A stretch of DNA of 64,000 bases from Microbacterium natoriense (lineage in GTDB: Bacteria; Actinomycetota; Actinomycetes; Actinomycetales; Microbacteriaceae), in assembly GCF_030816295.1 (NCBI RefSeq), contig NZ_JAUSXV010000001.1:3534001-3598000 (forward strand), written 5' to 3'. Positions within the stretch are counted from its first letter, which is position 1. The number at the start of each line of letters is the position of its first letter. Below, piece after piece: positions 48,797 to 49,594 of the stretch. Below the pieces are notes generated by a model, which was not told where the DNA came from, made no database searches, and saw only the letters and a program-made list of their open reading frames with translations. The position numbers and the translations under genes are program-made.

Positions 48797-49088
48797 GGGC
48801 CTCTAGCTCAGTTGGCAGAGCATCGGACTTCAACAAAATAGGAGCGCCTCGGGGGAAACTTCGAGGATGACACCACTCAAAGTCGGGGAACCCTCGCTGG
48901 GAGACCAGTTGGCAATCCCGAGCCAAGCCGGACGCGAGTCCGGAAGGTGTAGAGACTGGACGGGTGGCACCTACAGCGAAAGCCATGGTGAAGGGACAGT
49001 CCAGACCACGAACGCCCTTCGGGGCGGCGGCGAAAGCCGAAGTGGCAAGTTAATCCGCGGGTCGAGGGTTCGAGCCCCTCGGGGCCCA
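48797..49088 (+). tRNA. tRNA-Lys (anticodon UUU), interrupted by a group I intron
   Basis: Exon 1 is 48797-48830 and exon 2 is 49050-49088. Joined, they give a 73-nt tRNA with acceptor GGGCCTC/GGGGCCC, D-arm GCTC/GAGC, anticodon loop CTTTTAA, T-arm GAGGG/CCCTC around TTCGAGC, and discriminator A. The anticodon UUU reads AAA/AAG lysine. The anticodon stem has a weak outer pair (27-43). The intron lies between nucleotides 34 and 35, inside the anticodon; boundaries are fixed because the bases on each side differ. CCA is not encoded, unlike the two threonine tRNAs in the window. Standard tRNA scans would miss it. Confidence 0.9.
48831..49049 (+). ncRNA. Group I intron (IC3-like) in tRNA-Lys
   Basis: A 219-nt ORF-less intron ending in the expected G (49049). 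The core reads like the Azoarcus tRNA-Ile and cyanobacterial tRNA-Leu introns: GAGCCAAG, then GGTGTAGAGACTGGACGG (the P7/R region), ATGGTGAAGG, then ACAGTCCAGA (S region). P7 pairs ACTG with CAGT where Azoarcus has ACTA with TAGT, a compensatory change that supports a working fold. GCCC-TTCG-GGGC and GGC-GAAA-GCC hairpins near the 3' end fit P9-type elements. The preceding exon ends in U, as needed for the U-G splice-site pair. Self-splicing is inference. Confidence 0.9.
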
Positions 49089-49132: not shown

Positions 49133-49594
49133 ATGAAACGCTGCGGAACATGCGGTGTCAGCAAGCCGCTCGATGAGTTCAATCGGAAGAGTTCGAGCGC
49201 CGACGGGCGTCAAGCCGTGTGCCGGGACTGCAATCGAGAATCCTCTCGTCGCTACTACGCGCGAAATCGCGAGCATCACATCGCCGTGATCCGTGCGCGC
49301 ACCAGGGCGCAGCAGGCGGCGAGCATTTCCTTCGTGTCCGAGTACCTGTCCGCGCATCCGTGCGTGGACTGCGGCGAAGCGGACCTCCGTGTTCTGGACT
49401 TCGATCATCGCCCCGGCTCACCCAAGCGAGACGACGTGATGCGGCTCGTGCGCAACGGCCACAGCATCGCCGTCATCACGAGCGAGGTCGAGAAATGCGA
49501 TGTGCGATGCCGGAACTGCCATGCGATCGTCACCTACGCTCGCATGGGGGCGAACTGGCGGTCGGCCGCGTGTGAAGCTCAAACAGCTGAATGA
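49133..49594 (+). CDS. HNH endonuclease-like zinc-binding protein
   Basis: A 153-residue protein with two parts. The N-terminus has zinc-ribbon-like pairs CGTCG and VCRDCNRES, then a basic helix. The C-terminal half has HPCVDCGEADL, VLDFDHRPG (the D-x-D-H of HNH nucleases) and CRNCHAIVTYAR (the N-C-H). Such proteins are common in actinobacteria and their phages, and some are free-standing homing enzymes. It begins 45 bp behind the intron-containing tRNA, a position that may not be accidental. ATG 49133 is chosen by domain start; an in-frame ATG at 49103 is possible. Confidence 0.8.
   Translation: MKRCGTCGVSKPLDEFNRKSSSADGRQAVCRDCNRESSRRYYARNREHHIAVIRARTRAQQAASISFVSEYLSAHPCVDCGEADLRVLDFDHRPGSPKRDDVMRLVRNGHSIAVITSEVEKCDVRCRNCHAIVTYARMGANWRSAACEAQTAE

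Follow-up and report, generated by a model that had tools for sequence, protein, structure and literature searches.

Group I introns of bacterial tRNA genes are known from Leu(UAA), Arg(CCU), Ile(CAU), and fMet genes in organisms such as Anabaena, Agrobacterium, and Azoarcus. Those in fMet and Ile2 tRNA genes are covered in available parts of PMC8450103 and in references cited in PMC3984707. The intron described here splits a tRNA-Lys(UUU) gene in the window, i.e., the whole 64,000-nt stretch of Microbacterium natoriense DNA that was analysed. It resembles the known introns in kind of core and in size and, for Leu(UAA), also in its site after nucleotide 34, but differs in its host gene, in a guide sequence (UAGGAG) that fits the Lys 3′ exon, and in belonging to a clade confined to Actinomycetota among the cores compared.

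To our knowledge, collaborative homing has so far been reported from phages. The closest described case is F-CphI, encoded next to psbA, an intron-bearing gene of cyanophage S-PM2 (PMC6083498), and the process is also described for T3 and T7-like phages (PMC10448857). As in S-PM2, an ORF-less group I intron at the Lys locus sits next to a free-standing endonuclease gene (here putative) and interrupts the presumed target of its product. The Lys locus differs in lying on bacterial chromosomes and in a tRNA gene, in having the HNH gene on one side or the other, and in presenting two intron types and a replacement tRNA as altered alleles. Two further systems are related in part. The gene for T4 SegB is likewise an endonuclease gene among tRNA genes and favours the inheritance of that region (PMC2988022), but SegB belongs to the GIY-YIG family, is encoded by a phage, and acts without an intron. 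In tRNA-dependent lysogeny, as set out in the available part of PMC10865867, several actinophages integrate into the host's only tRNA-Lys-TTT gene and supply their own copy in its place; tRNA-Lys-TTT is again a DNA target and a replacement tRNA is brought along, but the enzyme is an integrase, not an HNH endonuclease.

A group I intron in tRNA-Lys(UUU)

The split gene (48797-49088; all features given here are on the forward strand) consists of a 34-nt 5′ exon (48797..48830) ending in GGACUU at nucleotide 34, a 219-nt insert (48831..49049) whose last base is G, and a 39-nt 3′ exon (49050..49088) that starts with UUAAUCC and carries no encoded CCA. In intron mode, ARAGORN called tRNA-Lys(ttt) with a 219-nt intron between positions 34 and 35, returning the same exon limits as an earlier note on this DNA; without intron mode, it listed two tRNA-Thr genes in the window and no split tRNA-Lys. 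Joined, the exons form the normal 73-nt tRNA that the earlier note had described; of the uninterrupted tRNA-Lys genes at the genus loci examined, the closest differs from it at two bases. In group I introns, the 5′ exon ends in U and the intron in G. The exon-final U34 and insert-final G hence fix the splice sites between nucleotides 34 and 35, uniquely under this rule. The terminal base is G in 35 of 35 aligned Lys introns, and U34 faces the guide G. The Leu(UAA) introns found here share the insertion point (GACTT^...^AAAATC), which bears out the proposed likeness to tRNA-Leu. The U/G boundary rule also reassigned ARAGORN calls at other intron loci: Asn(GTT), SeC, Stop, Glu, and Arg(TCG) calls at actinobacterial loci are really Lys(UUU), His(ATG) calls are Arg(CCU), and Phe and Ser(TGA) calls are Leu(UAA).

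The full Rfam model RF00028 covers 48821-49023 (31.2 bits, E 2.6e-5), so that the search proposed in the earlier note did yield a group I match, though below the gathering score of 50; no further group I match was found in the 4.19-Mb, one-contig genome at E ≤ 0.001. The conserved core words cited in that note are present in the sequence, and in a core tree the Lys intron groups with Leu(UAA) and Arg(CCU) introns, all collected by one core pattern. Together, Rfam, ARAGORN, covariation, and the tree support the reading of the insert as a group I intron of the tRNA type, of a subgroup that we take to be IC3, in an actinobacterial tRNA-Lys(UUU) gene.

Stems P2 to P9.2 were drawn by hand on the window and then counted over 35 distinct Lys introns, in which 99.7% of 2058 cells were paired. 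Across these introns, 20 of the 59 pairs differ on both sides (shuffled mean, 11.6), and the covariation score was 0.218 versus 0.082, a signal lost on sliding the partners. The conserved core (P3-P4-P6-P7-P8) could be drawn with its pseudoknot. The pairs of P4, P6, P7, and P9 and the core words are unchanged in all 35 relatives, as is AATAGGAG (35/35), and the variable stems covary. Being invariant, P4, P6, P7, and P9 are uninformative on pairing within this set, and it is a phage copy, that of Gordonia phage Daredevil, which supplies changes in P7 and P3. The 5′ strand of P7 (GACUG, 48954..48958; partner CAGUC, 48997-49001) pairs as GACUA/UAGUC in Daredevil, the inner pair being G-C in 35/35 bacterial copies and A-U in the phage. 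A compensatory change in P7, which had been claimed earlier, is thus seen here; presumably, P7 also differs by a compensatory change from the Azoarcus intron. In P3 (5′ strand 48873..48878; partner 48962-48967), A-U is replaced by G-C in one of 35 rows and C-G by G-C in Daredevil.

As read from the sequence, the internal guide sequence UAGGAG (48839..48844) fits the whole ligated junction (CUU followed by UUA), with GAG pairing to exon CUU in P1, including the U34.G wobble, and UAG forming three pairs with UUA of the 3′ exon in P10. ATAGGAG, which contains the guide, occurs in 29/29 Lys introns of the species-genome pattern set. About 1 of 3 positions of the Lys guide pair with the Leu(UAA) 3′ exon; guides of Leu introns discriminate less, pairing at 1.85 of 3 positions on Leu and at 1.7 on Lys. 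The single-strand folding energy of the pre-tRNA was unexceptional (z -1.86, 10 of 200 shuffles equally stable) and is uninformative. We consider it nearly certain that the insert is a functional intron.

A search with tRNA models found 44 other tRNA genes in the genome, each of which was read with ARAGORN. None of the 44 is a UUU tRNA, the single other tRNA-Lys being CUU, and the intact uninterrupted anticodon arm, GACTTTTAATC, is absent from the whole genome. The earlier note had held that growth would depend on self-splicing if this were the only UUU tRNA, and as far as searched the number of others is zero. Under wobble rules, a CUU anticodon is unable to read AAA. Hence, the decoding of AAA codons, which are rare yet present (3 in five nearby ORFs), would rest on the split gene and depend on the intron splicing out of it. 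Intact GACTTTTAATC occurs in 46 of 59 sampled genus genomes and is likewise lacking in 31 of the 32 other intron-bearing genus genomes. The exception, G158, is of the same species as the window and carries an extra plain, different tRNA-Lys(UUU) on another contig (L197 264-337), near the contig end and by a kinase-like frame.

Distribution of tRNA-Lys introns

Full-length copies of the window intron were present in 33 of 366 Microbacterium genomes. The core pattern collected at least 120 loci from 84,980 species genomes, 117 assigned to a host gene and 3 not; hosts among the matches listed were Arg(CCU) (56), Leu(UAA) (29), Lys(UUU) (29), a CAU tRNA (2), and Arg(UCU) (1). Microbacterium loci in this set overlap the 366 genus genomes, and the two counts are therefore kept separate. 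In the core tree (116 rows), the 30 Lys introns, that of the window included, form one clade (SH-aLRT 93) beside the Leu(UAA) and Arg(CCU) introns. Among the 116 cores, this clade is composed entirely of Actinomycetota (Microbacterium, Nesterenkonia, Tsukamurella, Prauserella, Frankiales, Phytoactinopolyspora, and Actinomyces). A search of the phylum with one intron matched 7 of 376 genomes, including the window's own; two of the six others have Gln-like hosts, one a CAU host, one (L324) gave a group I match, and two were without a group I match. The earlier note was thus right about the Lys(UUU) host but missed how common the intron is in the genus, its presence in other actinobacteria, and the adjacent HNH gene.

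An insert of 22-49 nt is too short for a group I core. Introns of that length have been claimed in cyanobacterial tRNA-Lys genes (available part of PMC5733544), and no report of a real group I intron in tRNA-Lys was found in our literature search, outside which the intron database of PMC11835236 lies. Hence, tRNA-Lys(UUU) is a new host for a known kind of intron, with no earlier report found.

Several related elements were observed along the way. In Nesterenkonia alkaliphila strain F10, two tRNA-Lys(UUU) genes that differ from each other both carry an intron (L030 and L054). Two loci from other actinobacteria (L325 and L326) are tRNA genes with group I introns scoring 71 and 78 bits with Rfam; ARAGORN gives their host as Gln(CUG), which may be a boundary artefact. 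Plasmid records matching the window tRNA-intron query numbered 1272, 1268 of them at 60-80% identity. The one that was read, plasmid pCTX-M3 (L333 1465-1763), has a tRNA-Leu(UAA) with a group I intron that is unannotated in its listing. In the 595-kb uncultured phage LR756511 (L334 about 1350-1700), an HNH-like frame enters the 3′ half of a group I intron whose host gene, by eye, looks like tRNA-Leu. Matches of 27-35 nt to the 3′ part of the intron occur in genomes with intact tRNA-Lys (G122:C1:3550330-3550364 and G229:C2:212994-213020), and two genus genomes contain half copies of tRNA-Lys(UUU) that resemble integration scars (L198 and L210).

An HNH gene beside altered tRNA-Lys alleles

An ORF of 153 aa from its ATG (49133..49594) begins 44 nt behind the tRNA, with a gap of about 80 bp between intron and ORF, and matches the HNH endonuclease profile phrog_2255 (E 4.4e-34); no Pfam family reached its cut-off in this ORF. 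The protein has four CxxC pairs together with H92, N128, and H130, of which H92 and N128 are invariant and H130 is present in at least 90% of 38 aligned proteins. The AlphaFold model is confident (pLDDT 90.5), and its best viral fold matches are phage HNH endonucleases; PDB searches by sequence and by fold gave nothing significant. In the three phage records examined, of 292 with a match, the family lies amid tRNA genes. We presume the protein to act as a free-standing homing endonuclease whose specific target is the tRNA-Lys gene in its uninterrupted form.

Strong homologs (E ≤ 1e-24; weaker matches, mostly of 36-54% identity over part of the length, were set aside) were detected in 43 of 366 genus genomes. 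In 43 of 43, no more than about 200 bp separates the HNH gene or its nearest part from a tRNA-Lys(UUU) of non-standard form, namely, one with the window-type intron (23), one with a second group I intron (10), or a phage-like variant tRNA (10). Four layouts were seen: the first intron with HNH 3′ on the same strand, the second intron with HNH either 3′ on the same strand (3 loci) or 5′ on the opposite strand (7 loci), and the variant tRNA with HNH 5′ on the opposite strand. The second intron (247-262 nt; Rfam, 49.8-59 bits) occupies exactly the same nucleotide in a different, foreign tRNA-Lys(UUU) in ten genus genomes (L252, L255, L256, L258, L300, L302-L305, and L308). The variant tRNA-Lys is uninterrupted and has a different anticodon stem and an odd T-arm; it was examined at 11 loci (L238, L243, L250, L251, L253, L257, L259, L301, L307, L309, and L310), i.e., 10 of the 43 plus G013, which has an HNH fragment. 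Among the matches listed, several of its genomes show no other uninterrupted UUU match, and three genomes (G124, G146, and G179) have variant tRNAs with no HNH match.

Since the loci of the second intron (10/10) and the variant (11/11) were found through the HNH gene, these associations are ascertained; those of the first intron and of standard genes are not. At the first-intron loci, which were found without reference to the HNH gene, the gene or a part of it was present in 24 of 33, always 3′ and on the same strand, 20 of these being an uninterrupted ORF. It was present at 0 of 34 genus loci fetched by their uninterrupted anticodon (flank up to 1.5 kb; two broken tRNA copies and G158's extra tRNA are counted among them) and at 0 of 20 standard loci within about 4 kb. 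Fisher p values were 4e-11 against the 34 loci and 6e-8 against the 20, both uncorrected for relatedness. An HNH match beside the intron was missing in 9 of 33 genus intron alleles, one of which retains a 12-residue remnant. Besides that remnant, decayed copies show frameshifts or truncations, and two have the last catalytic H replaced. Homing genes lose function after fixation (available part of PMC3984707), and the broken HNH copies would fit this stage of a homing cycle.

Outside the genus, 14 Lys-intron loci were taken up, one of which (L029) belongs to a genus genome (G277), leaving 13. An HNH gene of this kind was not found at 12 of these 13 (at L043 by profile search only), the sole case of intron and HNH together being L042, from a Frankiaceae MAG. 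Across the order, HNH matches occurred in 7 of 356 genomes, four in the genus and three in other genera of the family. One of these three (L320) has an intact HNH (48% identity) about 165 bp from an uninterrupted standard tRNA-Lys, another (L321) has its match beside tRNA-Arg(UCU), and the third (L319) beside a variant tRNA that retains GACTTTTAATC; hence, that core alone cannot be the HNH target.

Movement of tRNA-Lys alleles

The same fasciclin-domain gene lies near all four allele classes (23 standard, 21 first-intron, 7 second-intron, and 3 variant rows), indicating that these are mostly alleles of one locus; at the three loci where the second intron has HNH 3′, the tRNA is inverted relative to this gene. 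On flanking-DNA trees, the alleles are scattered, with 12 changes over 54 rows on the best tree and fewer forced by well-supported branches. A standard allele (G005) falls inside an intron-bearing clade beside G237 (100/99 support) and provides an empty site. Its close relatives G237 and G238 carry the intron, and the flanks are 90-96% identical; these two differ from G005 by a 220-nt intron and, directly behind the tRNA, by about 596 nt with the HNH gene where G005 has 141 nt. Of the 33 intron alleles, 25 have native exons, which differ from an uninterrupted genus tRNA by 0-2 bases, and 8 have foreign ones, 6 bases from any uninterrupted genus tRNA seen and 2 bases from the intron-bearing tRNA-Lys of Phytoactinopolyspora. 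We count these foreign exons as pointing to horizontal movement of intron alleles. The joint presence of intron and HNH in the Frankiaceae MAG, and again in Gordonia phage Daredevil (below), is counted on the same side.

Independent contrasts on supported branches gave 4 pairs, of which an average of 3.9 agree (p 0.125), and 2 and 3 pairs, all of which agree; when the two traits were swapped, agreement was seen in 2 of 3 and in 3 of 4 pairs, no difference in the rest, and opposition in none. The fasciclin-gene tree and the 4-kb upstream tree (25 loci used, 44 dropped for low coverage, and loci with <1.5 kb upstream left out) contain too few independent contrasts for significance.

Proposed homing and alternative explanations

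Taken together, we read the intron and the HNH gene as a collaborative-homing pair, a reading to which we assign a probability of roughly 0.55. The intron would remove itself with guanosine, guided by UAGGAG, as in established group I chemistry. Cleavage by the HNH endonuclease would fall around the anticodon of the uninterrupted tRNA-Lys gene, a target that the intron would disrupt in its own copy; repair of the break would then carry intron and HNH together into the recipient. Other HNH carriers would be shielded in the same way by the second intron, at the same nucleotide, or by the foreign phage-like tRNA-Lys. That the HNH gene was found, within the genus, only next to unusual forms of this tRNA gene suggests that the intron both protects the tRNA gene from cutting and helps the pair to spread. 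The intron alleles without an HNH match, the loci L319, L320, and L321, and the small number of independent contrasts weigh against this reading.

A different role for phages is conceivable, though we think it unlikely. The altered alleles may be a shield against, or a relic of, tRNA-dependent lysogeny, having removed a phage attachment site or arrived with temperate phages, with the HNH gene as phage cargo. This would be in keeping with the integration into, and replacement of, tRNA-Lys-TTT by actinophages noted above, and with the genome of Gordonia phage Daredevil (NC_048021). A tRNA-Lys(UUU) gene missing from the annotation of this phage (L332 2494-2804) is interrupted by an intron of this kind, 238 nt long. 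A member of the HNH family (38% identity) is encoded about 450 bp from the split gene, and an integrase about 570 bp away on the other side. Between integrase and split tRNA-Lys lies CGGACTTTTAATCCGC, the sequence of the uninterrupted anticodon arm, which is likely the attachment core, and the intron splits exactly this sequence in the phage's own tRNA gene. The available part of PMC10865867 describes Daredevil as integrating at tRNA-Lys-TTT without rebuilding the gene and as lacking a tRNA, consistent with the clear plaques it forms; the intron-split tRNA-Lys found here differs from that description. A viral contig (L578; 37 tRNA genes by ARAGORN) also bears on this alternative: by eye, it has a tRNA-Lys-like sequence with anticodon-stem mismatches that shares its body and odd T-arm with the bacterial variant, and it encodes an HNH of the family (41% identity), so that the bacterial variant looks phage-derived. 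Such a variant-like sequence was present in 1 of 4 viral contigs read.

Against lysogeny, tblastn (E ≤ 1e-3) found no relatives of the Daredevil integrase in the genus loci searched, which have flanks of 1.5-4 kb, or within an 18-kb stretch around the site in the window, the exons are native in most intron alleles (25/33, as above), and the empty-site pair shows no prophage-sized insert. In wider viral surveys, two loose intron patterns gave mostly chance matches, and two stricter ones gave 15 and 36 loci; the matches of all four patterns were filtered to 4 candidates, of which only Daredevil was a real intron by eye. Sorting 120 viral anticodon-core matches into tRNA genes and attachment sites was too crude for use, and a distant search for the second intron in phages found nothing.

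Co-occurrence of intron and HNH gene could also reflect linkage only, a single ancestral haplotype having spread by descent and recombination with an HNH that does not act on tRNA-Lys. The short gap between the two means that linkage accounts for part of the co-occurrence, and L320, where an HNH gene lies near an uninterrupted tRNA-Lys, is a counterexample to strict association with altered genes. Intron and HNH distances are correlated (Mantel r 0.65, 15 genomes), but each is also correlated with distances of the flanking gene (0.42 and 0.59). As a full account, however, linkage seems quite unlikely to us, given that members of the HNH family neighbour altered tRNA-Lys genes of three kinds, arranged in four layouts, and also lie near a split tRNA-Lys in a phage, a pattern not expected from one haplotype.

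We give very little weight to the proposal that the HNH protein is an anticodon nuclease that attacks tRNA-Lys itself, with the altered genes making resistant tRNA. tRNA-Lys(UUU) is indeed the target of PrrC, and phage tRNAs can have anticodon-loop changes (available part of PMC10264068), but the family is an HNH endonuclease by profile, and the spliced tRNA is identical (distance 0) to an uninterrupted genus tRNA-Lys in 9 of 33 intron alleles, so that the intron cannot protect the mature tRNA. A dead intron in a non-functional tRNA gene, for which the low Rfam score and the ordinary folding energy could be cited, is hardly credible given the invariant core words and P4, P6, P7, and P9 in 35 relatives, the covarying stems, and the lack of another UUU tRNA found in the genome.

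Returning to collaborative homing, a broader version may be put forward, which we hold tentatively and at somewhat less than even odds: the anticodon-arm DNA of actinobacterial tRNA-Lys(UUU) could be contested by the HNH endonuclease and phage integrases, with the two introns and the phage-type tRNAs as resistance alleles that destroy the DNA target, the introns leaving the mature tRNA unchanged.

Implications

The pairing of an HNH gene with an essential tRNA gene across three kinds of altered alleles is a more surprising part of these results than the intron itself. Surveys of tRNA genes run without intron mode would list genomes such as this one as lacking tRNA-Lys(UUU). For Daredevil, the finding bears on a published phage experiment, as its tRNA is invisible to a search without intron mode. 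If the HNH pairing is true, it would represent collaborative homing in a cellular genome, with its target in an essential tRNA gene, and the altered genes would provide a natural series of resistant alleles for mapping that target. If the anticodon arm is indeed contested, Daredevil would use its intron to stop its own tRNA-Lys from serving as an attachment site, and the self-splicing intron would be, beyond a passenger, a genomic shield and a homing partner.
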